From Utricularia gibba (lineage: Eukaryota > Streptophyta > Magnoliopsida > Lamiales > Lentibulariaceae): a DNA stretch of 64,000 nt. Shown here piece after piece: positions 7,235 through 52,687 of this stretch; within the stretch, counting starts at the first letter, position 1, and each line of letters opens with the position of its first letter. A model generated the notes under the pieces. It did not search any database, was not told the DNA's origin, and saw only the letters and a list, made by a program, of their open reading frames with translations. A program made the translations under genes and the position numbers. Where the stretch lies: contig NEEC01000014.1 of NCBI GenBank assembly GCA_002189035.1, positions 2,501 to 66,500 of the forward strand, read 5' to 3'.

Positions 7235-9893
7235 ATGAGACTCTTGTGGTCGTTCTACCGTCACCATCGTTCCAGCTTTCTGGTTATTTGCACTTTTAGG
7301 TTGGTCGAGATGCCTTCACTAGCATATTGTTTCATTCTCTGGAGTCATTTGGTTTCCAGATGGGGAGTCGACCAGTTATTTGAACCGAATCCCAGATATA
7401 AAATTGTGTTTTTGTTTCCTTCTTCATTTTCGTTTTACATGCATAATCTTTGAACGCTGTATTTATTGCGATTCTCTATTTTCCTTCAAATTTTGTTTGG
7501 CTTATCTGATTCACCTTTTATATCATTCAGAATATACGCCTTGCCAACATTGATCCAGTTCAACCAGATATTTGGTGTTTTTCATCCGATAATTCTCAAT
7601 TGATGTATGCTCTTGACTTGTCGGCAGTGGTGCAGGGCTGGTAGCACTAGCTGATTCCTCTGTAGATGGGACGCCAAGGCCGAAGAAAAAAGTTGTGGTT
7701 CTTGGAACCGGATGGGCAGCTTCCAGCTTCCTCAAAGATCTTGACATATCAAATTACGACGTCCAGGTGGTTTCTCCAAGGAATTACTTTGCATTCACCC
7801 CTTTGTTGCCAAGTGTTACCTCTGGAACTGTTGAGGCTCGAAGTATTGTTGAGCCGGTTAGGAATATAATCAAGAAGGTAGCCAATTTTTTTTTAATCAA
7901 TATAGTCGGGATTCAATCTTTTTTTGTGTTCTTGCTAAAAACAGAGGAATGGAGTTATCAAGTTCCTGGAGGCTGAGTGTCTCAAGATTGATCATGTTAA
8001 CAAAAAAGTGTTTTGTCGTTCCAACATAGAAGGTAACTTAGCTGGGGAAAACGAGTTCTGTTTAGAGTATGATTACCTGGTTATTGCCGTGGGAGCGCAA
8101 GTAAACACATTCAACACTCCTGGTGTAATGGAGTACTGCCATTTCCTTAAGGTGTAATTCACCCTGTTTTTCTGGCCATCTGTAGTAGTGCTGCTTGTTC
8201 ATGTGTAAGAATGAAACTGGAATCTGTTGCAGGAAGTGGAGGATGCTCAAGAGATTCGTAGGACTGTCATAGATTGCTTCGAAAAGGCCGTTCTTCCTGG
8301 ACTCACTGATGAAGAAAGAAGAACCAATCTGCATTTTGTCATCGTGGGGGCGGCCCAACAGGTGTAGAATTCGCTGCTGAGCTTCATGATTACGTCCATG
8401 AAGACCTCGTCAAGCTCTATCCCACCGTGAAGGATTTTGTGAGAATCACTGTGATACAATCTGGTGACCATATCTTGAACACGTAGGAGATGGCTTCAAC
8501 TGATGAATCCTTTGTTTGTGCCTGTAGATGGCTCCAAAACCATCTCATAGATGCTGTTTGTATTTCAACTTACTGTGTAGATTCGATGAGAGGATTAGCT
8601 CATTTGCCGAACTGAAATTCCAACGAGATGGTATTGAAGTTCTAACCGGGCACAGAGTTGTGAGAGTTGGAGACAGAACAATCGACATGAAAGCCAAAGC
8701 AACCGGAGAAGACATCACCATTCCTCATGGAATGGTTGTGTGGTCCACTGGAGTCGGCACTCGCGCAGTGGTGAAGGACTTGATGGACCAAATTGGTCAG
8801 GTATTTGCTCCTTCCTTTGACGATCATTGGTGGTTCTCCGAAGCACTTGGAACATTGATGCTTCTCCATTTGCAGGAAAGCAGGCGTATTCTGGCCACCG
8901 ATGAATGGCTGCGTGTGAAGGGTTGCGAGGATTCAGTGTACGCTCTTGGTGACTGCGCCACAGTGGACCAGAAAAAGATCATGGTTTTTTTCTACTATCT
9001 ACAGAACTAGAAATGTGGAACACGATAAGTGATTTGGTTTTTGACAGAAAAAGAATGGTGATTCTCAGGTAGATATATCAGAGATATTCAAAGCTGCAGA
9101 CAAAGACAACTCTGGTACGTTGACAAAGGAGGAATTCCAAGACGTCATCGACGACATTGTGATTCGGTACCCACAGGTGGAGCTATATTTGAGGAGCAAA
9201 CATCTCCACGCGGTAACTGACTTGCTGAAAGGCTTCTACGGAGAAGGCAAGGAAGAAATAGATATTGAAGGGTTCAAGTCGGCTCTGTCGCTTGTCGATA
9301 AACAGACAAAGAGCCTCCCTGCTACTGCGCAAGTAAGGAAGATTCATAGTTTCCCAAAAGTGCAAGAAAAAAACCAACTTCAACATCTTCATCCATCACA
9401 GGTAGCAGCTCAACAAGGTACGTATCTTTCGAGGTGCTTCAACGTATGGGACAAGTGCATGAAGAACCCAGAGGGTCCTCGCAAGTTCAGAAGCGGTGGT
9501 CGCCATGAGTTTCGCCCTTTCCAGTAACACAACGAACTTTTCTCCCTTGGAAGCGCATAAAAAACTGATAATCATTCACGGCTGCAATTGGATGTTTACT
9601 CTAGGTACCGCCATCTTGGGCAGTTTGCCCCTCTTGGGGGAGAGCAAGCCGCAGCGGAGCTTCCTGGAGACTGGGTTTCCATGGGCAGGAGCACTCAGTG
9701 GCTGTGGTATTCTGTCTACGCAAGGTCGATCCATTTTTTTTAACACTAACATTGCAGCGCAAGATAAGAAATACCCCTGCGTTAACGTTCAAAAATGGGA
9801 TGCAGCAAACAAGTGAGTTGGCGAACCAGACTATTGGTCATGAGCGATTGGTCAAGGAGATACGTTTTTGGCCGAGATTCAAGTCGGATCTGA
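7235..9893 (+). CDS. External alternative NAD(P)H-ubiquinone oxidoreductase (NDB type) with EF-hand, one-base frame break
   Basis: Ten exons: 7235-7299, 7628-7877, 7945-8151, 8233-8482, 8581-8800, 8876-8983, 9048-9332, 9402-9523, 9605-9724 and 9806-9893. The protein is a type II NAD(P)H dehydrogenase of plant mitochondria. It oxidises cytosolic NAD(P)H on the outer face of the inner membrane and feeds ubiquinone without pumping protons. Visible signs: FAD-binding [12 protein letters not shown] early in exon 2; the second dinucleotide fold near [21 protein letters not shown]; an EF-hand loop [12 protein letters not shown] inserted in the second half, typical of calcium-regulated NDB enzymes; and the conserved C-terminal end FGRDSSRI. 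Exon phases all agree, giving 571 residues, if one base is added to the G5 run at 8346-8350. As written the frame ends at TAG soon after that run, inside the NAD(P)H-binding glycine motif. The rest of the gene is intact. NDB subtype was not resolved. Confidence 0.9.
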
Positions 9894-11153
9894 GATACCG
9901 CTGGCAGCCAGAATCTACTCGAAGCAAAGAAGTGTGCTTTTATCATTGCTGTAAAAAAAAAAAAGAAACTGGAGCTTCTCCGTTTTGGAAAAAGGAAATT
10001 ACAGAAATCCACACGAAAAGCCCGACAAATAAGAATCTTACATTGCGCTGTTTATCCTCAATTCGGACACCAACATAGCAAGTACAAGAAACAGCAGAGG
10101 GACTCTTTGTGAGCTAAAGGGTCAACACGTTCAGCAGACAGATGGAAGGTGTGCCATAAAGCTGGGCGGTTAGCTCGGAAGTTTTTCCCACTATGCACGG
10201 CTCGTGCAGTGTGACTGCTGGCATATAGTGGAGTGAGCCGTGAGGTGTGGGGGTGTGCGTGAGAAGCAGAGTCTGTCTGGTGTTTGATCATAGCGTGTGT
10301 GATCAGTGTTGGGAGTGAGTCTGGCATTTTGTATCTCTTGATTAAAAGCCTAGTGAATCTGCGGGTTGGATGGTTTTTCACTCAACACCAGGAGGTTTCC
10401 CAAACAGGGGTTTTACCTGGCTAAATCTCATGTTGATTGTCTACTGGTTTACAACTCACGCGAATCATCCATACACACCTACACTCTTATGAGTGCTGTT
10501 TCCTCCTGTCATCTGCCAAGTGGGAGATGCCTCATCAGGGCCTGAGGAAAACTGCTTTTTTTTCGCCCGTCTCTAGGCCAACACTTGCTCGGAGTGGCAG
10601 CTCACCATTGCTAAGCTGGCCAGTGGCCACCATCGACAGTTTGCTCAAGCAGCACCTGGTTCTGATTGCCGTCATTTCTTTGCCTGTGCTGTGTATCCAC
10701 TGAGCCAGTCGACTCTCCAGAGGACAAAAATGTAAACGAGCTAAATGAGTAGAAGTGGACGGATATAGCTGTCAGCATGCGCGCGTGCCGTATCAGCAGT
10801 TGACAGACGAAGTGAGAACAATAAAAGCACGTAAGGGCAAATGGGCTCTATCGAGTATCGAGTCAAAATTTGACAGGAAATCTTGTGGGCTAAAGGAAGG
10901 AGGTGGGTGTAATTGGGCCGATATTCTTGAACCATGATCTGTACCCATTTATTGGTTGGATACGCTGCTGATGGCGTGGCGAGAGTTTATTGGCTGTGTC
11001 ATCAGATTCTGTCGTGCTCTGGGGGATGGATAATCCCTGAAATCCAATCCACTCCACTCAACTACATCCGCCACTGAGTTTCACGTTACTGAGCATGGTC
11101 GATCGGTTCAGAATCTGAAGCCCAACTACTTTGCCTCCGCCATTTTTGTGTTT
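9894..11153. other. Intergenic region between NAD(P)H dehydrogenase and THF1
   Basis: This stretch holds the 3' flank of the dehydrogenase and the promoter of THF1. Scattered short open frames on both strands show no recognisable domain. No RNA gene or transposon ends were seen. Confidence 0.45.
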
Positions 11154-12729
11154 ATGGCGGCTATTACTTCGGTAACCTTCGCTGCGCTTGCGCTATCGCC
11201 GGATCGAAAATTCAATCCTCGCGGCTCCTCAGTTTTCGCGTCACAATCTCCCAAGCCCCAAGGCACGGTTTCTTATGGTTTATTCACCTATCGCGCTTCG
11301 GCCTCCAGGTTTCTGGTCCGCAGCATGTCAACCGCCGCAGGCAAGCGCTGTTTGTATTTCTTTGTTTTTTTCTTTTAGTTTTTTTAGGACGCTTCTTCTT
11401 CTTCATTTTTTTTCTTAATCGTGTTTGTGAAAATTACTTGATTACGCCGCAAATGCAATGTAGTCTCTAAACATGGATGGGTTACTTATGGACCGACTTT
11501 ACTAGAAAGCTGTTGATGTGGTGTTCCGCCAGGGGCTCCTAGTGTCATTTATCTCTCTGTACTCTTATTACGTCTGCATAAAATCCTTCTCCTCTATTTC
11601 AGATGTGCCCACTGTGTCTCAGACAAAATCAAATTTCTTGAGAGCCTATAAGAAGCCGATTCCTAGCATTTACAACACAGTGTTGCAAGAATTGATTGTA
11701 CAGCAGCACTTGATTCGTTACAAGGCATCATACCGATATGATCCTGTTTTTGCTCTTGGATTTGTTACTGTTTATGATCAACTCATGGAAGGGTACCCAA
11801 CTGATGAAGAACGAGATACCATCTTCAAATCCTATATTGAGGCTTTAAGCGAGGACCCTGCACAATATAGGCACGTCTTCTATCTTCTTTCTTTTCAGTT
11901 ATTTGGATTGACACAAGTTTCTATGGGCTCCTTACTTAGGAAAATAGGGTGCTAATATTGTTAGTGAAATGTATATGTTATGTGCTCTAAACTATTTGCC
12001 GCTCGTTTACTGATCAAAACTTAATTTGCAGTATGTATAGGTGTCAGTCTCTTATTTCTCATTCACTGGAAACCTAGTCTGATTTCCTTCTAACAAAATC
12101 CTTGTTGTAGGGTTGATGCTAGAAAATTGGAAGAATGGTCCCGAGATCAGTCGTCTAGCACTTTAGTGGATTTCCAGTCTAGAGGGGGAGAAGTTGAAGA
12201 CATTTTAAAGGAAATTTCCCAAAGAGCTGGGAGCAAAGGGAGTTTCAGCTACAGTCGTTTCTTTGCCGTTGGTCTCTTCCGAATACTTGAGCTAGCAAAT
12301 GCTACCGAGCCCAGTATTCTGGATAAGGTAAGACTCATCTGCAAGGTTAAATGATTCAGGCATCTGAATATGCTCCATGTTTGGCAACTCTAGACTTCTA
12401 ATGTTTCCTCATTGCTTCGAAGCTTTGTGCTGCACTTAATATAAACAAAAAAAGCGTAGATCGGGACCTTGATGTATATCGCAATGTCCTTTCCAAGCTG
12501 GTTCAGGCGAAGGAGTTACTGAAGGAATATATGGATAGGTGAGAATTTGTAACTTAAATTCGAGGGAATTAACCAATGCTCCTCCGGCTGAACCTTACAT
12601 TTCATTTGTTTTTTCAGAGAGAAAAAGAAGAACGAAGAAAGGGCTGCATCCCAGAAACCAAACGAGGCCGTAACAAAGATCCTGGGGGACGACCAATTGA
12701 CAGCCAGCCTATTGCATACATGCAGATGA
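11154..12729 (+). CDS. THF1: THYLAKOID FORMATION1 / Psb29, plastid precursor
   Basis: Five exons: 11154-11340, 11603-11870, 12111-12327, 12423-12538 and 12618-12729, in phase, 299 residues. Residues 1 to about 60 look like a chloroplast transit peptide, rich in S, A and R with few acids. The mature part carries YNTVLQELIVQQHL, the stretch FALGFVTVYDQLMEGYP, and FSYSRFFAVGLFRLLELA-like sequence, all strongly conserved in THF1/Psb29. A coiled, charged C-terminus with REKKKNEERA follows. Family role: vesicle-dependent thylakoid formation, photosystem II repair through FtsH, and plastid sugar signalling. Two introns seem to start with GC rather than GT: intron 1 at 11341 (CAG then GCAAGC) and intron 2 at 11871 (ATAG then GCACGT). 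For intron 1 a GT donor at 11350 is also in phase and would add three residues. For intron 2 no in-phase GT donor was found. Confidence 0.94.
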
Positions 12730-13251
12730 GGAATTTTGGATGACAAACCTAGCAGTTTCCGAGGCACAAAAGCTCAGTTCCGTGGAAGATCTTTTTATCT
12801 TTGTAAAAATTTCGATATGTAAGCTGTCTAACGAATCATGAGTGCAGAAAATGACGTGTGGTTTGTCCATATTACTATACATTTTTTATGTATATTTCAT
12901 AAATAAAAATAAATAATTACAATGAAATATAACAGTGCAATCATACTAACAAGATGGTAAAATTTATCTAGCCACACCAATAAGCATACCAGGAGAATTA
13001 GGTAAAAAGAAAAAAAAAACTATTAGTTCACTCGTCCCCAACAGATGTGAACATTGTGCTAAATAAAGAGAATGAAACGTGTTTCAATACTCACTTGCCC
13101 GACTGGAAACTCTAGGCTAACCTCCAGAATCACATCCACATTCAACTCCATGGGAGCAAGCATCTATGGTGGGCGTTACATAAAGATGACCTCCCTCCCG
13201 CATCAGTATCCTCAAGGGCTAATTTTTAAAACTATACACTGTTATAATAGC

Positions 13252-13876
13252 TGTTTACAAAAGTACTCACTATGTGTATTAGGTATATTGCGTGTATATA
13301 AATTTACAAAATCACCATTTGCTTAATGTATATGTAAAAATCATATTATAAATATTATAATTTATATTTTCATAATACTTAATAATGATTTTCAGTATAA
13401 TGTTTTTACTGAAAATCATCACATAAAACCAACTCGTTTTTATAATAAACAATACTTTTTAAATAATATTAATACTAATAATATAGATATGATAAGATCA
13501 AAATAATTTTTTATCTAAAACCAAATTGTTTTTATAATAAATAATACTTTTTAAATAATTTTAATACTAATAATATATATTTTATAAGATCAAAATAATT
13601 TCTAAATTAAAATCAAATCGTTTTTATAACAAACAATACTTTTAAAATAATTTTAATACTAATAATATATATTCATAAAATCAAAATAATTTCTGAAAAA
13701 ATATAAAAAAAATTATTTACTAAAAAAATTTTATTTAAAATCATTATCAAGTATTATAAAAATCAAAATTATAATATTTATGATATAATATTTATATACA
13801 CATTAAAAAGAATAGGTAATTTCGTAAAATTACATACATATACTACACCACATTACACAGAGTAGCTAGTTTTACA
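13252..13876. mobile_element. Foldback / MITE-like element with long imperfect terminal inverted repeats
   Basis: The sequence from 13252 to about 13398 is an imperfect reverse complement of 13737 to 13876. Shared blocks, read inward from each end, include TGTGTA, the inner ATTATAAATATTATAATTT-like block and ATAATACTT.ATAATGATTTT. The ends themselves match as TGTTTACAAAAG against TGTAAAACTAG. The interior is almost pure A and T and holds three tandem units. The element has no coding capacity. I could not find a convincing target-site duplication, so the superfamily is not assigned; the outer boundaries are accurate to perhaps 10 bases. Confidence 0.65.
13424..13700. repeat. Three tandem copies of a unit of about 92 bp
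   Basis: Units start near 13424, 13516 and 13609. Each begins AAAACCAA or AAAATCAA, continues with TCGTTTTTATAA or TTGTTTTTATAA, and ends with a GATCAAAATAATTT-like block. Spacing is 92 to 93 bases and copies differ by scattered substitutions and small indels. The array fills the centre of the foldback element. Confidence 0.8.
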
Positions 13877-14708
13877 ATCAACTCGTTCAAGTCCCTTGTT
13901 CGGCCATTAATTCACCTAGGTGGCCCCACCTCCTGCCGCACCTGCAGAGAAAATGCTACCGTTGACTCTCTTTGAGATTTATTGGTTTCCCATTAATTCA
14001 CCTAAATTTAACTTCATATAGATCTTTATCTCCTCTCTTTTATCTATGTTCATCGTAATATAAAACCATGGTAACATGGAGGCTTAAGGTAGTTCATATC
14101 CAAAATTAAAAATATTCAATGAAAATATATTACTTTCGATGAAACTCCATCAAATTCTTCATAATTGAAAGAATTTAAATTAGAGTGCGAAATGAAATCA
14201 GTCATCTTTAATATTTTGTGCTAAACAAACGATGGAACATATGCTCAAGGGATTGGAAATACTGTTAGGGGAAAACCATTGCGAGTCAGTTTTTGTATAT
14301 CATCTGGACCGGATTGTTTTTTGGGCAGCAACCGGCCGGGGTAGCCGGACCTGGCCAAATCTGGTTTTAAAACCTAGGGTGGGTTGCGTTGGATACACTG
14401 CAGGTAAACAGGACGATTGTAACGGAGACAGATCTTTGGTTTCTTCCTGTTTTCTTTGCCAACACGCGGGCTCCTTTTCTTCTTCTCGTCATCGGCGGCA
14501 ATCAACACAAGCGACGTGCCTTCGTTACAATGAGAAGATATTTCTTTAGGTCTGTAAAAAAACTTTATTGATCCATCAGGTTAGCGTTTGCTGAGCACCA
14601 ATTATGAACAAGAAGTGTCTCTGGTCCAAGAACTACCAGATATTTTATTTTGAGAGCGAATGAATGCGTACATCATCAATGACCCACCATTTCCGACCAA
14701 TTCAAGTA

Positions 14709-20233: not shown

Positions 20234-21438
20234 TCAAATGAACTGGTGCAAAGCGGTGTTAACAAGAGCATCTGCAACGATTCTGTTGGTGCGTTCGGTA
20301 GGGTGAAATGCATCCCAAAATACATATTTGGTTGCATCTGAACAGGTAAGCAGATTTTGGGCGTTACAGGCGTATCCCATTTCGAAGGATCCAGTGGCAC
20401 AGCATGCCCTGTCCGAAACTTCAAACCCTGCCAACATTGAGAATTGCTGTCAATGACCAGTTAGCTGACTGTGAATGAGGATGAGGGCTTACCGTATGAG
20501 GATGGAGTTCGAACCAAGTCGAGAATGGGGTCGTAGAGGTTGGACACGACCAAAATCAAGCCGGGGGTTTGCTGATTGAGCTGGGTCACCATGTCGGACA
20601 ACTTGGTGTTGAAACTCAGAGCCGCGGCATTATAGGTTTCAATACAAGCTCGGGTTGGCAGATTTCGTGCCCTTTCTAAAGGCATGCACCCCATCGGAGG
20701 AAGTCCCCCAGGGAGATTTTCCGAGCGCCGAGGGAGTGAAGATCTATGATGAAGTTTCGGGCGATTCCTAGGAGAAAATCCTGGTAAGCCTCCACGGAGT
20801 ATTGCAATGCCCTACCTGTCCCTGGAAATGCGTAGTAGTTCTCCAGGAAATCATTGGTTCCAATGCTTATGATATAGATTGCCTTTGTTATAGTTTCCAT
20901 GGTTTTCCAATCTCCGAGGTATGCCCTTAGCCTCCCTATGTATTCTCTGAAGTAGTCCAGTTCCTTCCACAAAGGAATCACCCCCTGAGGACTAAGGATT
21001 TTCAGAGTAGCGTCGCAAAAAAATAGCTTTTTATCTAGTTTCAGTCATGGAAGGGAGGAAGGAACTCACGAGAACATTAGAGGTTGTGTTGTCGTATCCA
21101 GTTCCCGCAGAAGCAAAGGTCACGCCCACCGCAAAGTCAGTGATATTATATACGGGATCCAAATACGCAGGCACAAAGGGCCGGAGGCCTAAAGCCTCAG
21201 AGATAAAATCAGTGGCTATGCGGCCGTTGCAAAATCTGCCAGTAGGCTCCCCTCCTGAGAAGTCGCGTCCGTATGGCTGAAAGTTGCTCCGAGCAATTGT
21301 GGGGATGCGATTGTTGTTGCCTGCATCTACAGAGGAGTCTCCGAAGACGATGATCGCTGGGACAGTGTCAGCAGCCAAGGGGGCGAGGGCGAGCGCGAGG
21401 CAGAGCGGCAGGATGGCGGCTGCAACGAGGGATCTCAT
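20234..21438 (-). CDS. GDSL esterase/lipase (SGNH hydrolase), one-base frame break
   Basis: Three exons: 21438-21070, 20984-20493 and 20427-20234. An N-terminal signal peptide (MRSLVAAAILPLCLALALAP) predicts secretion. Block I is FGDSSVDAGNNN with the catalytic Ser; GTND supplies the block III Gly and Asn; block V is FWDAFHPTE with the catalytic Asp and His. Family role: hydrolysis of ester bonds in cell-wall, cuticle or lipid substrates; the exact substrate cannot be told from sequence. Two paired-Cys regions (ACCATG and CNAQNLLTC) fit the plant subfamily. With one base added to the C5 run at 20705-20709 all exon phases agree and give 351 residues, and the normal motif GLPPMGCMPLERAR reads through. 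As written the frame ends shortly after that run. The downstream half, including the catalytic Asp-His, is otherwise conserved. Confidence 0.9.
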
Positions 21439-22702: not shown

Positions 22703-24176
22703 TTAGGCGACTGGTGGGCGGAGGGCATGGTCTTGAGATGTATCAACGGCGGCAGGCGGCATGAATTGCCACATAGCGACGCTGGGGTAACTGATGACAG
22801 GCACCAATTTGTCGCAAGCAGCTTGGTTTCGTACAGCAACTGCACCAGGGACCGGGGGAGCTGGTATGAAGTTGGGTAATGAAGCGCTTACTGCCTTCAG
22901 CTGCTTCTCAAGCGTTTCCTTCTCAGCCTTCAACTTTTGCTTCTCTTCTCGAAGTTCGTTTTTTTCTGCCTGCAATGAGCAGCGCAAAACGAAGAAAGTC
23001 AATCATTGCTCAAATACAAATATGGAAAGTTTTTTTCTTACTTTGAGCTCCTTGATTTTTTCCTGGATATTCAAGTTTGAGTCTTTCTGCTTCTCGGCAT
23101 CAACTTTTAGCTGGGCTATCATACGAACTGCATCAACCAAAATTGCAGATTTATCTGTCTTGGGAGGCTTCCCAGGGTCAATAAGAGCGGCCAACTCCAT
23201 AAACCTAGAACACACAAAACCCCTTGTTAAAGCACAGCTAAAACACATAATCAAGGCATGCTTAACCAAGCTCGTAAACCATTACCTGTCATTTAGCCTA
23301 TCTCTCCTCTGTTTCTCCCTGCATGCCTTTGATTTGAATGGGGCACATGAATCATTTCTAGCTCTGAGAAACAAACAAATAACGAGATTAAACATTATCA
23401 ATATAGAGTTCCTTGTGAAAACATATACAAGCATCTAAGGTATCAAAATTTTAAAACTCACGAACATATCTCGACAAGATCCTCCGAAAAATTAACAGGA
23501 GCGTTCCTCTATAGTAAAAATGTAAGGTGTTGGGAATAAAATAAAGAAAAGTTTATGGGTGCTACCTCTTCTTCGATGAAGCCTCCCTTTCTGATTCTCC
23601 AACCGATCCATCGATCCCCAAACTATCAGTATTTCAGAAAACCAATAATGATTTTTCAAACGGAGATAAGGAAAAGAAGAGGCTAATAAAAAGACAGCAA
23701 AATTGCAATCCCCTTTAAAATACATATTCGAAAAAAATCACGTTAAGGTGGTTCTTCCTTGTGAATCTCACACTTATTCATCATCGCTTCCATTCAAATA
23801 AAATAGGAACTTGAGCAAATGATACGGCATTCAGTTATATGTAAGCGACATAAATAAAGTTGTAAAACACAACCCCCAAGTACTGCTAGCAAGGATAATG
23901 AGACATCTCTCCAGGAAAATAGGCACCAAGCAATAATATGACAACAAGGTGTAAAATCCAGGGAAAGAATCAGGAGTCAACTAGAGGGAACTACCAAGAT
24001 GAGGAATTTTTGTAAAAAAATCATCAACCAAAATAAATACCCAGCATTCGGTGTCGCATTGATGGGTTCCCCCGGGGTGGGAACCCGGGATTGTGAGCCG
24101 AGAAAATGGCATCAACATCATGGATATCCGGAATTCCGTAATCGTAAAACCAATTAGTGTTTTCCGGCGCATCCAT
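22703..24176 (-). CDS. bHLH transcription factor, class IVc, bHLH115/ILR3-like, one-base frame break
   Basis: Five exons: 24176-24041, 23622-23566, 23363-23286, 23204-23042 and 22969-22703. The basic region and helix 1 read KACREKQRRDRLNDRF, with His-Glu-Arg type contacts changed to the class IVc pattern. Helix 2 follows (KSAILVDAVRMIAQLK), then a leucine-zipper-like coiled coil rich in E, K and L. The C-terminus is AMWQFMPPAAVDTSQDH and ends LRPPVA, a strong signature of the bHLH115/ILR3 group. These factors form heterodimers and activate iron-deficiency regulators. The exon 1/exon 2 junction is out of phase as written. One extra base in the C5 run at 24069-24073 restores it, gives 233 residues, and turns the end of exon 1 into family-like sequence (PINATPNAG). 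The gene is divergent from CTF18. Confidence 0.9.
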
Positions 24177-25211: not shown

Positions 25212-28200
25212 ATGGAAATTCCTGATTTTGAAGAGCTACAATGGCTGGAAGCCCACTGTATGGAGGATCCCTGGGAAGAAGAAGACTACGTGATGCAAAT
25301 GGAGGAGCCCCCTTCCCCAACTCCTCCGCCCGACCCCGATGAGTCTCCTAATCGACCCATTCTCACTCTTCCTACGCTGCCTTCCCTTTCAAATCCCATC
25401 CAGGTTAACTCTACACTCAAGAAACGCATTCGGCCCGGTGACCACAGGAAGTGCAACCTCGATCCGTATTATTCTCGCAAGAAGAAGTGCAAAACTGGGG
25501 AGGATGAAGATCTGGAAGAAGAATGGAATTTTCAAGGTCCCCATTTGGAGGAAGATGAGGCGACGAAAGCCACAGTACCTGAAATTTTGCACGATAATGG
25601 CGATGCCTTGGATGACAGCATAGTGGAGGAGGAGACAGAGAGTGGAAAAGGGACATTGTCGAGATATGCTTCTGAAATAGATGGGGATTGTGTGCCAATT
25701 ACAGGGTTGGATGGGGACTTGGTGTTTGCAAAGATATGTGAATTTCAGATGGATGAGGAGCGGAGAACAAAGAACGCGTATTCCAGAGAAGGTATGGATG
25801 TTACAAGATATGCACTGCATGCAGCCTTAACCGTTTTGAGTGCTATAGCTTGTGCACTAGTATATGTTTATAATGCGGAATACGGATGCTTGCAGGACTC
25901 CTTGTAGAATCCGTGAGAGTTCTAATGGAGAAAATAGAACATGAGGATTTCACAAAGGTTAGTTCAGTACTGCTCTATGTATTAGGAAGGAGGATGTAGG
26001 TTCATGCTTTTCTATGCTAAATTCAAAAACAAATGAGACAAGCATTAGCTGCCACTAAAACTCGCCTCATGTGTTTTTCTCTCTTTAGTAATCCAACAAA
26101 TTTTTAGCAGTGTGACTGTAGGCTTCTTATTCATAAAGTAATGATTACTCTTTGCTTGTGTAGGCTGTCCAGGCAACTATGAATAGCCAATCTGGAATAG
26201 ACTCACCCAAGCCTCCAGATGGCAACGAGCAACTTTGGGTTGAAAAATATGCTCCAAGCTCATTTACAGAGCTACTCAGTGATGAAAAAACGAACCGTGA
26301 GGTTCAGTTTCTAATTGATTAGGTTTGCGTAGCCTATTTCTTTGAGAAAATTTTGCTATATTAATTTGCTCCCCATAAATCCAATAATTGTAGGTACTCC
26401 TCTGGCTAAAACAATGGGATTGCTGTGTTTTTGGATCTTCGATCAAGAGCACAGCAGATGATGTTTTATGTGCATTGAGTCGACATTCCTTGAGCATGAT
26501 GCATTCAAGGAAATCTGGGAAAACCAGTAACTTTGGAAGCAATAGAGAGAGTGGGTGCACAGGAAACTCACTAGCTCCTCCTGATTTGGATGAGGAGAAT
26601 AATATCAATCTTGGCACTCGGGAGGTAGTGGAAAATAGAAACAAATTCTCCAGTCCTCCCGAAAAAAAGGTTGGATAGTCTTTTACTTCTCAGTTTTATC
26701 TTATTATTTGAGTTTTTGTTCTCTTCATTTACTCTGGCCTACAATGCACAATGCTTATGAATCCCACCTTTCACTCGCAATTCCTAAAGTAAAAGTTACA
26801 TGAAAGTACAATAAGAAACATGAAAAACATAGCCAGACCTGATTGTTTTTATGTTACTGATCGATGTGTTCTGTCATTGGGTTGATTTGATGTTCACAGA
26901 TTCTCTTACTCTGTGGTCCACCTGGGCTTGGGAAGACTACTCTTGCACATGTGGCGGCTAGGCACTGTGGTTATCAGGTGGTAGAGGTGAGAGTTAGATC
27001 CATCTTTACGTGCAGTCAAACAAATTATTTTTTATATGCACCTTTGCATATGCAGTGTTACAAGTATTACGATTCTGTTGTAATATTTTTTTATGAGGCT
27101 TCCCACTGAGCTTTAAAACCCGTGACAGATTAACGCAAGTGATGATCGGTCTGCTTCAGTTGTTGAGACTAAAATCCTTGATGTTGTCCAAATGAATTCA
27201 GTTATTGCAGGTTCAAAGCCAAAGTGCTTGGTTAGTGTTGTACATGATTTTTTTTTGTATCAACATAAATTTGTCGAAGGTTGGTCCTTCAACAACACTG
27301 GTTGTTTATCGAAGGTTATTGATGAGATTGATGGTGCACTTGGAGATGGGAAGGGTGCAATTGAAGTTATCCTTAAATTGGTAGGTCAAGAGTCTTGTTG
27401 CCTTCATGTTTTTCCAGATGTCTGATGGGTGGATTAGAATTGCAATAACTTTTTCCTGGTAGATTACAAACCTCCTGTGATCTGGGAAACCTTCTGGTGG
27501 AATAATCATAAAAACATACAATATTTTCGTAGACATTTTTTTTTTTCACTGTAAAGATCAATGGGATTCTGAGAACAATTTTAGGTTCTCAGGATTTGTG
27601 ATGCTCAGTGCTCAGTTTATCAGTGTTTAAAATGCAGGAGTATTCCATGGTCTCGTCTTGAACTAATAAAAGGTGATGCAGGTATCCGCAGAAAGAAAAA
27701 ACTTTACTGGAAAAGAAAACCTAGATGAAAGATTTACACCTAAGAAGAGGGTTTCTAGTAAGAGACAACGGAATTCCCCCTGTTGAGGCCTGTATGAAGG
27801 AATCCGTATATCATTTTTCATATTGTCAATGCGTTTGTTCCAAGTGACTGCTTATCGTGTGCAGGTCATTTGTATTTGTAATGATTTGTATGCGCCAGCC
27901 TTGAGACCTTTGCGTGAGGTAGCCAAGTAAGTCTTGTATGTGCGTCAATTTGGATTTCATAGTCATTTAATGTTAACTTGTTTGGTGTATCTGTCCAATC
28001 ACAAGCATTATAAAGTATCCATGACCTTGTCCGTTATTTATGAATTTAATTAAAGAAAACGAAGTGTGATAATAATCTCATATACAGCAACCTTATTTCT
28101 TGTGCATATTAGCATGACTTTTCTCATTTGAAACGTGAACAATATTCATAGAAAATTCTTAGTAAATTAAGTCATGTGTTTCCTTTTTCCCCATTTCAGG

Positions 28201-32050: not shown

Positions 32051-32054
32051 CAAT

Positions 32055-35385: not shown

Positions 35386-35388
<3 letters not shown>

Positions 35389-35433: not shown

Positions 35434-35438
<5 letters not shown>

Positions 35439-36663: not shown

Positions 36664-39424
36664 ATGGGCTGCGCCGCCTCTAAGCTCCATGAATCGCCGC
36701 CGGTGGCTCTCTGCCGTCACCGCTGCGCTTTTCTCGACGATGCTCTCCGATACCGCCTCGCTCTCGCTCAGTCGCATGTGGCTTACCTCAATTCCCTCGA
36801 CGCTCTCGGCGTATCCCTTCACCGCTTTCTCCACCTGCAGCGGGATCTCGATGGGCCCTCTTCCCCCCTTCTCAAACTCCCCACAAAGGCGAAAGGGGAG
36901 CCTGATTCGCCGGAGAGGATTGGGCACCATCTTCAGTCGCTGTCGCATTCTGGGTCCCATCTCCACTTTCACTCAGACTCGGATTCTTTCCACCATCTTG
37001 ATGATGAGATACCGCCGGAGATTCACGAGCATTGGCACCCTTACGGCGGCGGTGCTCCAAGTTACGGCGATTCCTTGTTAAATTTCCGTGGGGACGGCGG
37101 CGACGTAGCCTTCATGAGAATCAATTACATGAAAGCCCAAGCCACCGCCTCCGTAGCTTATTCTCAGAAGCCCGTTGGCGCCGCCACTGTCCGTGTTGAT
37201 GACTCCTCTCTTTCTCTCAATTCCAAGTACGTTGATGTTGATGAAAACCGAAATCGGATTAATCCTCCACCGTATATCAGCGGGTATTCAGATTACCGTG
37301 GTGCAGGAGATGGGCATTCTATAAAACATCAGGCGGCCCCGCCACCGCCTCCTCCTCCTCCTACATCGACGTGGGATTTCTTAAACCCATTCGAAGCATT
37401 CGACAGGTATTACATTCCTTACGGCAACGACTTCAAGGAGATTCGCGAGGAAGAAGGGATTCCTGATCTGGAGGATGAGGATGAGGAAGTGGTGAAGGGA
37501 GTCGATGGAGATCGGAAGGATGTTAGTAGTCAAACCAGTAGCAGTCACTCAAAGACGGCGGCGCCTGAGGAACAGCATCCTGCCGTCATTAATGCAGATC
37601 GTGAAGCGGGTCCAAGTGATGCAGCGGGAGAGCACAATTTGCTCAATGACGACGAAAGTTACCGAAACAGCAGAGTAAATTCTTCTGCGGTGAAAGCTCG
37701 TGGGCGTGGTGAAATCAAGGACGATTTGGACGCCGTAAAAGTGTTAGAAACCCAATTTCTCCATGCTTCGGAGTCTGGGAAGGAGATTTCTGAGTTTCTC
37801 GATGTCGGAAATGTTCCATATAAACACAAGAAGGGCGGCAGCCTCCTTGTACATGGTAAAGATTCGATCTTTTAATTTTGACAAGCGTCCTCAAAAGTGA
37901 TAATTTCCAGTTTCCTTGCATCACGTCACAGCTCCCAGTCCGAAGAAGATACTGCATCTGCATCTACCAGGGCTGTTGAAATCGGGGGGGTCTAAAAACC
38001 AAGATTCCGAGATGGATCAACACAGGCCTAAAAACCTTTCTTCCACTTTACACGAGATCTATCTCTGGGAGAGAAAGCTGTATGAAGAAGTGAAGGTGCA
38101 AAAGAGTTATTCGCCTCCTTTCTTTCTCTCCTTTTGTCTAGGCGTATCTTTTGGTGGGGCTGCAATATTCTCTGCTTTTAAATCCTTTTGGACAATTGTA
38201 GTTGTTCCATTATGCCTTCACGTTGCACCGACAGTTTTGTGCTGGTCCCCAATCCACATTTGCTACCAAGAAAGATGTAGTAGTTTTCTTGTGTTCCACA
38301 GGGTATCAATGCTCTTTAATTCCCACGTCCATACTTGTACGGTTTCACGTCAAGTGACATTTTCTCAGCAAGTTCTTCCTCCACGGTGATTTTTTGACCT
38401 TTTTTGGTTCATTTAGGCCGAGGAGAAAACTAGAGTTTTACACCATCGGAAATCTGTAAAGCTCCAGGATTTAGACAGGAATGGCGCTGAGGCCAACAAA
38501 GTTGATGCGACCAGAAGTTTAGTGAGAAGCCTGTCCACCAAGATGAACATTGCGATTCAGGTTGTTGATAGAATCTCAATGAAGATCAACATGCTCAGAG
38601 ATGAGGACCTGTACCCGCAGCTTTATGAATTCATCCACAGGTATACATCCCAGTCCTTCATCCAAGACTACGTACTACTGTCTGCCTACATTGGTGGTGT
38701 TTCGTTTCGAATGGGTTCCTAATGTGGTGGCTTGGTGTGTGGGTTGAACAGGCTAACGAGGATGTGGAAATCCATGCTTGAATGCCATCGTTCGCAGCGA
38801 GAAGCACTCGAGGAATCAAAGGGACTTGACCCCCTTGCCCCTCAGTTGGAAGCCATTTCTCAGTTTCAGCAGGATCTAATTACCTGGGCGATGGCGTTTT
38901 CAGACTGGTTCACCGCCCAAAGATCCTTCGTGCATTCCTTGAACAACTGGCTCCTGAAGTGCATTCTCTATATTCCGGAAGGAACTCCTGATGGTCCAGC
39001 TCCGTTTTCTCCAGGGCGGATGGGAGCTCCTCATGTTTTCGTTGTTTGCAACCATTGGTCCCAACTACTGGACACTGTTTCAGAGTATCAAGTAGTGGAG
39101 TCGATGCAGGAGCTCGCGAGAAATGTGCTTCAACTATGGCATCGTCAGGATGACAAGGGAAATAAAGAAATCCAAGCCATGGAGAAGAGAATCATGCAGA
39201 TTCGTGTAGGGGGCGGAGCTGGTCGTGCTGTATATCAAAGCGAGACCAGCAAAACAGGGAGCATCCAGGCCAGCCTGCACCGACTTGTGGAGGCAATGGA
39301 GAAATTTACAGCCGATTCTTTGAAAGCGTACGAAGAGCTTTTGCAGCGGATCACAGATGTCACTGCTGCTGCTGCTGCTGCTCCTCCTACTACTACCATC
39401 ACCTTACAACAAAATTCTTCTTAA
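36664..39424 (+). CDS. DUF630/DUF632 domain protein (NRG2 / APSR1-like)
   Basis: Four exons: 36664-37855, 37932-38095, 38417-38640 and 38752-39424, in phase, 750 residues. The N-terminus MGCAASKLHESPPVALCRHR starts with Met-Gly-Cys, a likely N-myristoylation plus palmitoylation site; the DUF630 domain covers the first 60 or so residues. The middle is low-complexity with a run of prolines, the TSTWDFLNPFEAFD motif, and acidic stretches. From about residue 440 the DUF632 domain follows, with TLHEIYLWERKLYEEVK, DEDLYPQLYEFI and LTRMWKSMLECH, and later FVHSLNNWLLKC. The product ends in an Ala run encoded by GCT repeats. Family members are plasma-membrane or nuclear regulators; NRG2 acts in nitrate signalling. 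The biochemical activity is not known. An AATAAA lies at 39469-39474, 45 bases after the stop. Confidence 0.93.
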
Positions 39425-41884: not shown

Positions 41885-43480
41885 ATGGAAATGGAGGAAG
41901 AGGTGGTGATAGTCGGTGCTGGTGTTGCTGGCCTTGCTACTGCCCTGGGACTTCACAGGTATGCAGTGCAATGCAACCCGTACTCTACCTAATTTAGTTC
42001 TTGCCGCTTTAATATGGTGGATCCATTAGACTGGGGATTCGGAGTTTGGTTCTCGAGTCCGCGGAGACACTGAGAGTTACCGGCTTCGCGTTTGGGTTCT
42101 GGAGCAATGCTTGGAAGGCCTTGGAAGCCTTGGGTGTTGCGGATCCTGTTAGGGACAGGCACCAGAGGCTCTTAGGGTAACCTTAACATTTTACCTTGAC
42201 AAGTAATATTACATTCTCCTGCTGACTCACTGCTATAACAGCCTTGTAGTCACATCCACAACCACGGGCCTTCAAGCATCGGAGATGATGCTCCCCGGGT
42301 AGCCGGGTAAGTGTTTGTGAAATTGCCTAACCGAACCCAAAGAATGCTTGCTACCTTCTGGCTTTTAGTGATGCTTCGTTTCATCAACAGGGGCACTCTG
42401 GAGGTGCGATGTGTTAATAGAAAGATTCTCCTGGAAATAATGGAAAAGGAACTCCCAAGGGACGCCATAAGGTACTCATCCAAGCTTGTAGACATACAGG
42501 TTGATGGTGCCACCAAGTCTCTCCTCCTTGCTGATGGAACTGTAATCAAAGCCAGGGTACGCTCTGTCACTTTGATGATTCGTACTTCAAAAGTCACATT
42601 TGGGTCGTAACGCTCTCTTTTTTTTTTTTGTGATGTTGATTAGGTGGTGATTGGAGCTGATGGAGTCAACTCTCCCGTGTCCAGGTTTTTGGGGTTGAGC
42701 AAGCCTGTTTCATCCGGTCGTTTCGCGATTAGAGGCTTCGTAAACTTTGAGGATGGTCATGGATTCGACATGAAATTCTTGCAGTTCGTGGGGGATGGGA
42801 TAAGACATGGGATCGTGCCCGCTGACGATCACTCTATCTATTGGTTTTGTTCCTACTCCCCTTCCTCTCAAGGTTCTAGTTGGATACATCTTGCACATTT
42901 TTTTTAGTTTTCATGGCATTAAAACAATCGGACCTCGTGATGGCATAAAATTGCATCAGATGAGCGAGAGATAGAGCATGATCCCGCCAAATTGAAGGAC
43001 TTCGCACTGAAGAAACTTGGAAAGGTGACGGAAAGGGTGAGGCAGGTAATTGAGAAGACGGATCTAAACTACATTATATCCACAGAGTTGAGATTCAGAC
43101 ATCCATGGGAGCTTCTATGGGGCAAGATAAGCAAAGACAATGTTTGTGTGATCGGAGACGCATTACACCCTATGACACCGGACCTCGGGCAAGGTGCGTG
43201 CTGCGCGCTGGAAGACAGTGTTGTGCTGGCCCGTTGCTTGGGGGAGGCAATGGGGGGGGAAGGTAAAGACGAATGTATTAGGAAGGGGATGGAGAAGTTT
43301 GCAAAGAAGAGAAGATGGAGAAGCTTCGAGTTGATAAGCTTGGCTTACTTGGTGGGACGAGTGCAGCAAGGTGGTGGAACTGCCATCAACTTTCTCAGGG
43401 ACATGTTTCTGGGCAAACTGTTGATGGGCATTGGAATCAGTAAGGCTGGATACGACTGCGGGAAGCTGGCATCCCCGTAA
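41885..43480 (+). CDS. FAD-dependent monooxygenase, plant MO/CTF2-like, copy 1, one-base frame break
   Basis: Six exons: 41885-41958, 42030-42176, 42242-42306, 42391-42556, 42644-42872 and 42960-43480. The N-terminal dinucleotide fold is VVIVGAGVAGLATALGLHR. GADGVNSPV is the DG motif that contacts FAD and NAD(P)H; GDALHPMTPDLGQGACCALED is the GD motif that binds FAD ribose. This is the aromatic-ring hydroxylase-like family; the substrate is unknown and plant members are often salicylate-hydroxylase-like by similarity only. Compared with copy 2, exon 3 is one base shorter in the CCCCGGG stretch at 42293-42299, causing an in-frame TAG at 42300-42302. One added base gives 400 residues with every later exon in phase. 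No transit peptide is evident. AATAAA lies at 43510-43515 after the stop. Confidence 0.9.
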
Positions 43481-44288
43481 TGCATCATGGCGTGGGCGAA
43501 ACCTGTATCAATAAATAAACCATAAGAAATATGTATGTGTATATTATTGTGTGTGTGTGTGTTATGTGGAGCTATGTTTCAAACTCAGCCAATTAACCTG
43601 TGAGTTAAACAGGTTAATTGGTTTTCGGCAATTCACTGATTAATCAGATTTCAATTATTGGTTTTATATATAAATTTTTTAAAAAAATAATATAATATCC
43701 AATCAGGGTTTTAAGGGTGTGGATGTAATATGATAGATTACTTTGCTTTTATAAAAAAATTTACTTCAAAAAATATTTCGATTTGATAATTATGTAATTT
43801 GATTGAGTCAAAAACAATTACGATTTCTCTTGACTAATAAATTTCATGATTTATTTTTTATTTCCAAACGAATTTCCATATGTGATTTATTGTTAATGTG
43901 ATTTTTTTTGTATAATAAAGAAGGGAATGACTTCGATTATTATATTTTAGTAACTAAAATATGTGTTACAAAAATTAAATATATTAATTATTTTATTATT
44001 AGTGATGATTTAGTAAGCTTCAAAATAATATTTATTATTTATTAATTTTAGATTTGATCGATCAAGCTCGGGTTTTTAATTGGACCCGTTCCATACTTAT
44101 ATACCCAATTGAAAGTTGAAAACATAGATGGAGAGTGAATTGTGACTGGTTTAAAAAACTGGCCACCGCACACGTCACAACAAAGAAAGAGACAGCGTGT
44201 GTGGACCGGACCTACTACCACCACAAGAGGCTTCTAGAAATGAAGATGATCAGGTGTCCACTACCACCCGCCTGGCTGCCACGAGAAG
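43481..44288. promoter_or_regulatory. Gap between the two monooxygenase copies
   Basis: A short GT repeat lies near 43551-43560, and an AT-rich block from about 43660 to 44060. A TTATATAC sequence at 44098-44105 could serve as TATA box for copy 2, about 190 bases before its ATG. No gene seen. Confidence 0.4.
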
Positions 44289-45935
44289 ATGGAGATGGAG
44301 ATGGAGATGGAGATGGAGATGGAGGAAGAGGTAGTTATAGTCGGTGCAGGCGTTGCAGGTCTAGCGACTTCCCTAGGACTACACCGGTATGCCATTTAAG
44401 CTAACAACTTGCAATGGAGGAAGAAATTTAAGCCTTAATTCTTTAGTACGATTGATCCATTAGACTGGGGATTCGGAGTCTGGTTCTGGAGTCCGCGGAG
44501 ACGCCCAGGGTCACTGGCTTCGCATTCGTCTTCTGGAGCAATGCTTGGAAAGCGTTGGAAGCCCTGGGCGTCGCGGATGCTGTCAGGGAAAAGCACCGAA
44601 GGCTTCTAGGGTAATCCTTCATCACTTAACCTGGATTAGTAACATCCAACTCCCACTCACTCTTTGTACCAATTCATTTGCTATAGCTTCGTAATTTCAT
44701 CCACATCAACGGGACTTCAAGCATCAGAGATGATGCTCCCGCAAGAGGCAGGGTATGTTTCACCGAGCTCGGTGGTTTATGCATGGCTTTTGGTGATGCA
44801 TACCTTCATTCGCAGGAGCACCCTGGAGGTACGATGTGTATACAGAAAGCTTCTCCTGGAAATACTGGAAGCGGAACTCCCCAGGAATACGATAAGGTAC
44901 TCGTCTAAGCTTGTTGACATACAAGTTGATGGCCCCACCAAGTCTCTTCTCCTTGCAGATGGAACCGTAATCAAGGCCAGGGTATGGTCTATAGCTTTAA
45001 TTGCACGCATTTACAGCATACACGTAACAGTCACATTTAAGGTTATAGAATATCCTGGTGGAAATGTCTCTGCTTTTTAATCTCTTGAATAGGTTGTGAT
45101 TGGGGCTGATGGACTTTACTCTCCGGTGGCCAAGTTTTTGGGTTTGAGCAAACCTGTGTCATCTGGTCGTTTCGCAATCAGGGGCTTTGTAAGCTTCGAG
45201 GATGGCCATGGACTCGAGATAAAATTTATGCTGTTCTTGGGGGATGGGATGCTGTATGGTGTAGTGCCCCTCGATGATCGCTCCATCTATTGGTTTTGTG
45301 CCTACGTTCCTTCCTCTGAAGGTTGTAGTTGCATTCGAACTTCTGATTTTCAGCTTCCATGTCATTGAAACAATCCGACCTCGTAACACGTCCCTTGGTA
45401 TAACATTGCATCAGATGAACGAGAGATTGAACAGGATGCTGTCAAACTGAAGGAATTCGCACTTCGGAGGCTTGGAAAAGTAACCGAGAGGGTGAGGCAG
45501 GTATTTGAGAAAACGGATCTAAACCACATTGCATGTACAGAGTTGAGATTTAGACATCCTTGGGGGCTTCTGTGGGGCAACATGTGCAAGGATGGTGTTT
45601 GTGTGATCGGAGACGCATTACATCCCATGACACCAGACCTTGGCCAAGGTGCGTGTTGCGCGCTAGAAGACAGTGTCGTGCTAGCGCGTTGCTTGGGCGA
45701 AGCAATGAAAGGGGGAGATGGGGATGAGAGGACAAACAAGGGGCTACACAAGTTTGTCAAGGAGAGAAGATGGAGAAGCTTTGAGATGGTAAGCTTGTCG
45801 TATCTGGTTGGACGAATGCAGCAAGGCAGTGGAGCTGTGCTCGGCTTCATTGGAGGTACTCTCTTGGGCAAACTCATGACGGCTATAAGACTCAGACAGA
45901 CCAGATATGATTGTGGGAAGTTGGCGTCTCAATGA
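44289..45935 (+). CDS. FAD-dependent monooxygenase, plant MO/CTF2-like, copy 2
   Basis: Six exons: 44289-44386, 44464-44610, 44687-44752, 44816-44981, 45093-45321 and 45415-45935, giving 408 residues. Exons 2 to 6 have the same lengths and phases as copy 1 apart from the single base missing there, so the pair is a tandem duplication. The motifs are VVIVGAGVAGLATSLGLHR, GADGLYSPV and GDALHPMTPDLGQGACC. The start is a run of five Met-Glu codon pairs (ATGGAG repeats, 44289-44318), so any of several ATGs could serve; the longest was taken. Copy 1 has only MEMEEE, so the repeat expanded after duplication or contracted in copy 1. A role in hydroxylating an aromatic compound is inferred from family only. 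Confidence 0.93.
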
Positions 45936-46243
45936 TGTGTGGGAGTGCAAGGCCTGCCTGGATTCCTGCTGTATTGTTGTCCAACGGTGGCTTGCATATG
46001 AAGAACATCTCCGAGTGTGTTACAGCTGAACTCCGGTCTTATTTACGTTGCTTTCATCACCGAAGATTGTGTTTCAATTGATGTGACCACCACAAGTACA
46101 TTCAACGCATACGATACAAGGCTGACGAAACACGAATACCAGTAAGTTCAGGTAAAACATTACACCAACAGCGTTGAGAAACACAACAACAGGGACAAGA
46201 AATCTTGTCTTTTTCCAGATTATGGAGCTGGGGAAGCACCACC
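45936..46243. other. Gap between convergent monooxygenase copy 2 and ROP gene
   Basis: A gap of 308 bases holding the 3' flanks of both genes. No other feature seen. Confidence 0.4.
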
Positions 46244-48842
<2,599 letters not shown>

Positions 48843-49184
48843 TTACCACGCTGTTGAAAAAGGATGTTTCGAACCTCCGGCGATTGATGGGGAAAGCTGA
48901 AAAGGCTGGATGGAGCCCCCTCCCGCTGGATTCCGTCCACTCTTTGAGAATGGAAACAAAAAAACAAAAGTTGAAATAATTCTCGTGAGGGGCTCCCCAC
49001 CGCTCAAAGTCAAGTGCAACATTCCATCAGCATGTAGACACCTCACATCACCAACAATTGATGTGGCATTCGGCGCAGTATCCTGTATGAAGACGCAAAG
49101 GATAGATGGATTGCAGCAGCATGAGAATGACGGAGGAGTGAACACTTCCATAACGCTAGCAAACCTTAGCAGGGGACCGTAGGG

Positions 49185-50488
49185 CCCCTTCTTGGCTGCC
49201 TCTGCTGCACCCTTTTCTGCTTCTATCTCAGCCGCAATGGCATCTATTTCAGCCTCTTCGAGCTGCCGCAGTCCATCCTGCTTGGTCATCTCAGAGACTT
49301 CAAAGTTCTTCCCCCCGCTCTCCACGACCTGCAAGTTTTTACATGAAACTAGGAAAATGTGGTCCCCTTGAAAGTAAAATTGCAACCCACTAGTACAGCT
49401 CCATTTCACTGCCCCTGTCTCATAGTGAATCACCCCCTCTAGATTGCTTGCGTTTTTTCATGAAAGAACAGCAACGAAGGAGTTTGGTTAATTTTAAGTA
49501 ACACCATTGACATTTTACCTCCATCAAAGCACGAATGACTAACTTCACAGTTTCCTGATCGGATGCTTCCTTGTAATTTTTCTCCAAGAATTCGCGAATG
49601 GAGTTTGAGTTTCTCCCGTTAGCATTGTCTTTCCAAGCAGAAAATGTCCCAGGGGTGATGGAGCACCGGTGTGTGGATCAAAACCAATGATCAGGGTTGA
49701 CAGGCCAAAAGGTCTAACACCACCACTTTAGGTGTATTTCTGCTGAAGCCCAGCAATGTAGCGTGTAATGTATTCAACTGTCACTGGATCTTCAACTGTG
49801 AGCTTGTGACTCTGGCATTCTATTCGGGCCCTGTTAATCAAAACTCGAGCATCTGCTTTCAGACCAGCACAGGCCAATGCAATGTGATCGTCTAGACTGA
49901 CGATCTTCTTCACTGATCTGGAAGATAACAAATGAAATATAGGAGTTCAGGTGTGACCATCATGTAAAAACACAGAAGATTGAAAGCATAGTACGCCATG
50001 AAAAATTGTGCACAAACCCTGATAATACATCAAGAACAACCACAATCAGCAAAACAGAGGGAAAAGCTACATTCCGGGGTAGGCCAGCGTTCAAGTGCAC
50101 AAATTTTTCAGCTGCGGTTTGGCAACTGAAAAAACTGCTTTTTTAGCGGTGCTGTTCCGCAACCGAAAAAAAATTTCATCCAACACCAAAACATTTTGGA
50201 TTTTACAAAGCATTAAATTGGCGCAGAAAAATCAATTCAAACCTCGAAAGGACCTGAAAAAATCATCACCAATGATCAGCAGATCGCTTGGAGAGCCAAG
50301 GAAAAGGAATAAACATAGAATCGTGAGGCTTAGGAGCTGATTTTTTTCTCAACGGCGAGCACGATAACATCCGTGCCTGGGATGCCGACAGCTGCGTTCC
50401 CTTTGCGCATGGCCTCAAGAGCGTACTCCACCTGAAATAGGCGGCCGTCCGGTGAGAACAGAGTGATTGCTCTATCATATCTAGCCAT
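49185..50488 (-). pseudogene. Decayed copy of 20S proteasome alpha-4 subunit (PAD1-like)
   Basis: Three exons on the minus strand: about 50488-50315, 49917-49519 and 49328 onward. The start is intact ([26 protein letters not shown]) and most of the alpha-subunit fold is recognisable: [53 protein letters not shown] and the C-terminal KKGP. Lesions: an A7 run (plus-strand T7 at 50341-50347) where six are expected shifts the frame within the first exon; CAA to TAA at 49730-49728 gives a stop; a deletion near 49652-49665 removes about seven residues and shifts frame; and the normal stop is lost, so the last frame runs on to 48843. Introns are kept, so this is a duplicated copy that died, not a retrocopy. 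A functional alpha-4 gene should exist elsewhere. Identity is sure; non-function is very likely. Confidence 0.92.
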
Positions 50489-50959
50489 TTCTCAGAAAAA
50501 AAAAAAAAACATTAGTCCGTTGCTCAGCTGCGATCCGCAAGTCGGCAAGAATTCGCGCCTTTCCCTCGCCTACTAACGGAAACGGAAACCTTAAATTTAT
50601 TGGGTAGTGAGCCAAAAGCTAACGGGCCAAGTTTTGTTTGACAAGGAAGCCCAATTAAATGTAGGGGAAAAAACTGGAGGCTGCGGCCCACGGGATGGTA
50701 ATGTTCTTTTAGCTTGCCTGGTTTGTCATCCAGAGCTAACGGCACAAATTTTAATGAAGCTCAATAGCATTCGAGGTATGGAAACTTGATCAACGAGGAC
50801 CACATAAACGAGGAGTAAAGAAAGGCTTTTAATCCATACAAGGTACCGCAGCAAATCACCCGACAGGCTGACGATGATGAATCCATGCTGAAGAAAAGAG
50901 AACAAGTGTCACCTTTGGATTGTGGTGTCCGCCCGAGGAAAACCAGAAATGGCTTGTTA
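50489..50959. other. Gap between cyclophilin gene end and proteasome pseudogene start
   Basis: This holds the 3' flank of the cyclophilin gene and the former promoter of the proteasome copy. If the cyclophilin frame break were real, its altered reading frame would run through here to 50761. Confidence 0.4.
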
Positions 50960-52687
50960 TCATCTTTGGATTCTGGTGTCATCTTCCCACTTGCTTTTCG
51001 GTATCTCCCAGAATCGATGATGACAACTTTCTTCCTCGGCTTCCCGCTGTAGGTTCCGGCTCCACCCTCGATCGCGTATACTGTATCCATACCATCAATA
51101 ACCTTCCCAAACACAACATGCTCTCCGTCCAGCCTGCACATTTTTCTGGCATAAGGTCGACAAAATCTCAAGTAAGTTGGCATAAGGTTAAAACAAAAAC
51201 AAGAATACTTACCAGTAAGTCTTGACAGTCGTAATGAAAAACTGTGATCCATTAGAATCGGGACCAGAGTTCACCATGGAAACAACACCTACATGATTCA
51301 AATGTTTTGAACGCAACAAGAGATTATTCCCCGCATTATGCACGTTTGCTGAAATTAATAGGACCTGCGTGTGAATGCTTTAACTTGAAATTTTCGTCTC
51401 TGAATGTGCCACCATATATGGATTGATTTCCCTTTCCATCTCCGGACACTATATCTCCGCCTTGTATCATGAATCCAGGTATGATACGATGAAATGGAGT
51501 TCCCTTGTAGTGAAGAAGTTTTCCATTAAGAGCTTTTCCCATCTCACCTGATTTCAGGGAAAAAAGAAGATCCTCTGATATTGGAAAAAAAGGTGGCTCT
51601 TGGAAAACATACACTGATAATGCATACTAAGAACAGTGACCAATAATTGAATGCTACACGTACCTGTACACAAAGCCCTGAAATTCTCTGCAAGGAAAAT
51701 AAGGTTTTTTGAGTGAGTTGAAAATTGCAATTCATAAGAAAAATGAAAATAATTAGTGCATGTAAAAGCATATATTTACCCACAGTTTTTGGCACAACCT
51801 CGCCATATAAAGCAATAGTGATTCTCCCTGTACATGGAAAGCAGTTAATGTAAGCATAGGTGACTCAAGAAGCAGAACACATTGTAGCGAATAGACCTCA
51901 GAGACCAATAATTCACATCACCGGATACTCTTGATCCTAATAAAAAATCCTGAGATATACACCAACAAAAAGGGGCCATTACCCAGGCGTTGGTTTTCCA
52001 TATCCACATCTAGAAATACTCTATGTGTGATTTCGTGGAACTCTCCCACAATCCCTGGCTCCTCAAACTGAAAATACAAAGCCAACTAAACAAAAAGCAG
52101 ACCGTAAAAGAAGAAATCTAATTCAAAATAATTTCCAAAAAAAAAAGCGCATCAACAAAAACTTGAAGTACAATACTAATTTATATAAGCATTCAACAAG
52201 GATTCTAAGACTTGTAGAAAGTAGCGTTGTCAACAAGGGATCTCGTAGTGAGTTAAACTCACAGCGATTAAGTGAAACTGCAACTTAATATCAACTAGGC
52301 AATGCCACACATCACGTTAAGAAGCCAAGCTGTTGGGTCAGAGGACAAGCATCAAACACGTTGCATCAACACCAGTAAACGCCGATTGCATGAAATAATC
52401 CACAGGAAAATAAATGCGAGATCGGAAATCAAGAAGCACAAGATCCAAAGATGGCAAAACAAATAATCGGAAGCATCAAGACGCTCATCTCAATCAATGA
52501 CGACTGCACACGCAGACGAGACAAGGGTAAAAGTAAAAACAAGAAGCAGATGTAAGTTAAATCCCAGTAAAATACAAGAAAATTGCACCTTTCTAGAGTA
52601 AGAAAACCCAAGAAATATAAGCGCTAGAGCCGCGAAAACGATCAATAGATTCCTGGGTTGAAAAGACGACGAGATCCCCCCAGCCAT
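50960..52687 (-). CDS. Peptidyl-prolyl cis-trans isomerase, CYP21-1-like cyclophilin, one-base frame break near the end
   Basis: Seven exons: 52687-52589, 52067-51983, 51827-51780, 51687-51664, 51547-51365, 51288-51213 and 51133-50960. The N-terminus has a single hydrophobic segment, [15 protein letters not shown], so the protein is a secretory-pathway signal-anchored or signal-peptide cyclophilin. The catalytic domain includes [14 protein letters not shown] (with the active-site Arg), [13 protein letters not shown], and [12 protein letters not shown] with the cyclosporin-contact Trp. Exon 4 is only 24 bases. With one base added to the CCC at 51007-51009 the end reads [13 protein letters not shown] and stops at 50960, giving 229 residues like CYP21-1. 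As written the frame changes to [11 protein letters not shown] and continues to 50761, adding about 66 unrelated residues. The isomerase domain itself is intact. Confidence 0.92.

Follow-up and report, generated by a model that had tools for sequence, protein, structure and literature searches.

Six genes in one stretch of a plant genome assembly each go out of frame at or beside a short G/C run, and the question is whether these genes are dead in the plant or were broken in the assembly. The window, meaning the whole stretch of 64,000 nucleotides that was analysed, corresponds to C98:2501-66500, and the assembly searched comprises 100,091,633 bases in 516 contigs. The comparisons presented here indicate, with a probability of about 0.95, that errors in the assembly consensus account for the six frameshifts.

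Total size and number of contigs fit the PacBio/HGAP assembly of Utricularia gibba; both the species and the sequencing method are presumed. The closest protein relatives among the matches listed are plants of the same order, and they include Genlisea aurea, a member of the same family. For the U. gibba genome, assembly with HGAP and a contig N50 of 3.4 Mb are given in PMC5793159. Four contigs, C1, C2, C505 and C507, have round sizes (8,500,000, 6,192,500, 3,452,500 and 642,500 bases), perhaps through trimming.

Frame breaks in the window

The interrupted genes and the sites of interruption are the following.

8346..8350, plus strand: NAD(P)H dehydrogenase, external alternative, NDB1-like (NDB); G5, frame change, one base short
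20705..20709, minus strand: GDSL lipase; C5, read as G5 in the coding sense, where the frame changes and one base is lacking
24069..24080, minus strand: ILR3-like bHLH, exon 1; C5 beside a short G run, one base short somewhere in the interval
27776..27780, plus strand: CTF18-like clamp loader; C5, frame change into TGA, one base short
42293..42299, plus strand: FAD monooxygenase, copy 1; CCCCGGG, where the frame changes, with one base fewer than in tandem copy 2
51007..51009, minus strand: CYP21-1-like cyclophilin; CCC, read as GGG in the coding sense, where the frame changes just ahead of the C-terminal tail

All six runs lie where the original prediction had placed them. That the six genes are out of frame at or beside these runs, each one base short compared with its relatives, was confirmed, and the support ranges from decisive for NDB down to spacing judged by eye for the bHLH and monooxygenase genes.

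At the NDB site, 120 of 120 homologs match in both plus frames 1 and 3. In four of these homologs the frame-1 match extends to 8349 and the frame-3 match begins at 8316 (three homologs) or 8346 (one homolog), and in the DNA alignment the paralog L076 has one extra base at 8346. The two-frame match of the GDSL lipase to PF00657 is nearly decisive; positions 59-123 of the profile are found in one frame (20.2 bits, below the 23.6 cut-off), and positions 120-173 (24.7 bits) are encoded in another frame of DNA that overlaps the first match. Here too a paralog, L075, has one extra base at the 20705 site in the DNA alignment.

The protein homologs identify the gene at 24069 as an ILR3-like bHLH factor. 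A second frame was not shown by tblastn alone, with 119 of 120 homologs in one frame only, and the evidence for a missing base comes from the N-terminal spacing of 25 of 120 homologs, judged by eye, and from the homeolog L074, which is longer by one base. The missing base may lie anywhere within CCCACCCCGGGGG. The present frame of CTF18 runs into TGA, and a typed read-through peptide spans the junction in alignments to the CTF18 chains 9uiq, 8umt, 8umu and 8zwo; by its spacing to homologs the gene is one base short. Tandem copy 2 of the monooxygenase is open at 44643-45080, through the place equivalent to 42293. The flank of copy 1 at 42331-42620 aligns with copy 2 and the DNA alignment ends at the 42293 site, so that the last step was read by eye. 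The tblastn search was mostly uninformative for the cyclophilin (100 of 120 homologs in one frame); the motif searched is present in 104 of 120 homologs and is followed by EIPK in 78 of these 104, and this family tail is found in the other frame at 51007. In Pfam the CTF18 and bHLH pieces had no match, and the single hit of the monooxygenase pieces, to PEX6, was at chance level.

It had been stated that runs of five stand where six are needed. The one-base shortage holds; the identity of the missing base does not follow, since the frame cannot tell it. The gap lies in or beside degenerate codons at most sites (codons by eye), so the missing base could be any of several, and the three aligned relatives have A, A and G opposite the gap. 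A sixth G or C is thus plausible, and proven at no single site.

Longer runs had been reported to be in frame, and two of them are:

43252..43259, plus strand: G8 in monooxygenase copy 1; in frame, spacing equal to copy 2
37984..37990, plus strand: G7 in the gene at 36.5-39.4 kb; no frame-changing gap relative to the homeolog L073

A third, the C6 placed at 49312, exists and starts at 49311. Run length alone is therefore no rule, and the in-frame G8 and G7 are what a random process governed by context and depth would allow.

Homeologous block and downstream constraint

Much of the window has a homeologous counterpart at C304:3465664-3537071 (L073, L074, L077 and L078), where the order is reversed and DNA identity is 69-86%. 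Redundancy of the genes is therefore possible, as would be expected if the six sites were true one-base deletions in genes that died after whole-genome duplication. In five blocks compared by eye between homeolog and window, no further clear frame break was seen in the coding parts of the genes that we take to be DUF632-like and GGPPS-like. L073, the GGPPS-like homeolog, is itself two bases short in a coding stretch, opposite window position 40499. Queries covering 7600-27200 and 34000-53500, which leave out the CTF18 site, found no near-identical second copy of the window at the gene sites within the same assembly; the best matches there were 65-86% identical (39 of 53 and 30 of 31 candidates scored).

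The sequence downstream of the breaks argues against gene death. Apart from the break, the bHLH and NDB reading frames are open and resemble their homologs closely, and differences from related copies fall mainly in third codon positions after the site: 20/11/41 differences at codon positions 1/2/3 for GDSL relative to its paralog, 8/3/26 and 20/7/39 for NDB, and 14/5/25 and 35/20/66 for the monooxygenase. The excess is weaker in the bHLH gene (4/3/8 and 5/5/12). Relaxed constraint downstream of the lesion was looked for in these four genes and not found, and the third-position excess means that the downstream frames of NDB, GDSL and the monooxygenase were under selection.

Single-base losses across the assembly

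The GRAS family, which is mostly single-exon, was chosen as a genome-wide control. From 69 matches 42 loci were examined, with matches on C416 (two), C177 (one) and C321 (one) left out, and frame-aware profile alignment gave 22 single-base deletion events. Events with a gain passing 15 bits were regarded as strong, L067 being dropped as an intron-like gap. The 18 strong deletions are distributed over 14 loci and 11 contigs, or about one per 2.5 kb (44,301 aligned bases, without L013 and L072). Only four four-base steps were found, two in intron-like gaps, one readable as +1 or -2 and one in a stop-bearing copy (by eye). The BAHD family, which is unrelated to GRAS, gave the same picture, with five distinct deletions (two of them counted twice via overlapping loci) and no insertions at a 10-bit cut in 30 loci. 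Deletions thus dominate over insertions in both families, which speaks against true gene death.

The strong GRAS events were compared, at a radius of 15 bases, with the positions of 23 intact copies (25,359 nt). A G/C run of at least six bases lies within this distance of 4 of 18 events and of 0.2% of background positions; for runs of at least five the figures are 5 of 18 and 2.1%. The mean longest G/C run is 3.8 at events and 2.5 in the background, and none of 20,000 resamplings reached as high a value. The systematic undercalling that the window had suggested is thereby borne out, as single-base losses concentrated at G/C runs in GRAS and BAHD across the assembly. The preference is not exclusive: 13 of 18 strong events have no G/C run above four within 15 bases, so that long runs raise the risk strongly and explain the losses in part.

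There was no enrichment of A/T runs at the 18 strong events (2.6, background 2.7). This bears on the idea that a mutator clone was sequenced, for example a mismatch-repair deficient one, in which the losses at G/C runs would be real. Loss of single bases at runs is the spectrum expected of a mutator, so that the events themselves would suit such a clone; A/T runs should then have been affected as well, and a plant could hardly survive with a coding frameshift about every 2.5 kb. According to PMC5749785 the substitution rate of Lentibulariaceae is high, which would also favour the idea.

The conserved motif RPGGPP of the GRAS proteins serves as a natural experiment. The G/C run in it is 2-4 bases long in all 36 intact copies and 4, 4, 5, 6 and 6 bases in the five broken ones; three of the five broken copies and none of the 36 intact ones thus have a run of at least five (p about 0.001 by hand, with paralogs that are not independent). 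L014 and L061 have the same residues around the motif, and where L014 has a T, L061 has a C, which gives L061 a long run, and its frame is broken. Among the copies, one and the same protein motif survives when its synonymous codons keep the run short and is interrupted when they create a long one, a dependence on codon choice that speaks against gene death. Five paralogs broken at one motif might also be taken as a sign that the living plant makes use of G/C runs for programmed frameshifting or for slippage in transcription. The other 36 of 41 paralogs read through RPGGPP without a shift and a conserved slippery site was not found, nor do the six window genes have a position, domain or slippery motif in common; such a mechanism is extremely unlikely.

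One GRAS locus is present twice in the assembly, as L012 on the small contig C316 (38 kb) and L013 on C412. The two differ by one substitution and ten indels, and in 10 of 10 indels the bases are missing from C316. Three of these are single G or C bases and seven lie in an AT-rich tract, where two of the seven comprise 7 and 4 bases. C316 has an open frame of 412 aa, C412 one of 615 aa. The pair shows base loss directly and is a partial stand-in for independent reads. A copy without the loss again speaks against frameshifting by design, and ten indels beside one substitution speak against a mutator clone, the sequencing of which has next to no probability. It is only slightly more credible, and still very improbable, that the run losses are real in the DNA of the plant, by a mutator or by genome-wide drift of G/C runs, and that the proteins are rescued by slippage in transcription or translation.

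Internal stops occur within the match in the broken GRAS loci of C480, C375:103546, C3 and C244:2105663. These stop-bearing loci may be real pseudogenes, and to that extent they favour gene death as a reading of frame breaks in this assembly. For the six window genes it is improbable. Similar single-base losses in other families of the same assembly make it almost certain that the six are errors and not dead genes.

Probable origin of the consensus errors

The errors would arise if, in PacBio continuous long reads, pulses are fused or passed over within homopolymers, chiefly those of G or C, and if the consensus step keeps the shorter call where the vote of the reads is unclear. The risk would grow with run length and be probabilistic, set by local context and depth, so that some longer runs come out correct. 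As far as can be judged from sequence comparison, the artefact is of a known, ordinary kind and is found across the assembly. A title-level search of the literature on the U. gibba genome and assembly, with the main long-read paper outside its scope, gave no title that reports this error.

The HGAP/Quiver assembly of P. falciparum is similar in that a long-read assembly has far more indels than substitutions (25,352 and 1,798 before short-read correction) and apparent frameshifts (PMC5964635). Divided by the 23.5 Mb set in HGAP, its indels number about one in every one or two kb, which is alike. It differs in that the indels are mostly in runs above six bases, with long homopolymers and TA repeats dominant (PMC5964635), whereas short coding G/C runs stand out in the present assembly; a shared pipeline is presumed. 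Frameshifts that give intact genes the look of pseudogenes are also described for long-read assemblies of small genomes (PMC12007338), genome size being the difference from the present case.

Consequences for gene-loss claims

If the assembly is the U. gibba reference, it contains about one false frameshift per 2.5 kb of coding sequence in the family tested, and counts of lost or truncated genes would be inflated in a species used for arguments on genome shrinkage. The artefact is a warning on gene-loss claims, and polishing with short reads or RNA-seq ahead of gene-loss calls would remove the problem.

L027 (C375) and L028 (C142), the two DELLA-like copies with the canonical VIDFSMKQGMQWPALLQALA motif, both lose their frame at the C run of GGPP; their divergent relatives L004 and L006 are intact. 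Two canonical DELLA-like copies thus appear dead at one C run, an example of how such counts could be inflated.

Other features of the window

At 13217-13878 the window contains a repeat of about 660 bases, with 93-95% identity to copies on C480, C402 and C2 and weaker matches on many contigs. It matches on both strands, in the manner of a foldback or MITE-like element, and its alignment to its own reverse complement has a score of 222. A stretch of 18 G at 3757-3774, or C18 when read from the opposite strand, lies between two minus-strand open frames and, by eye, may be intronic.
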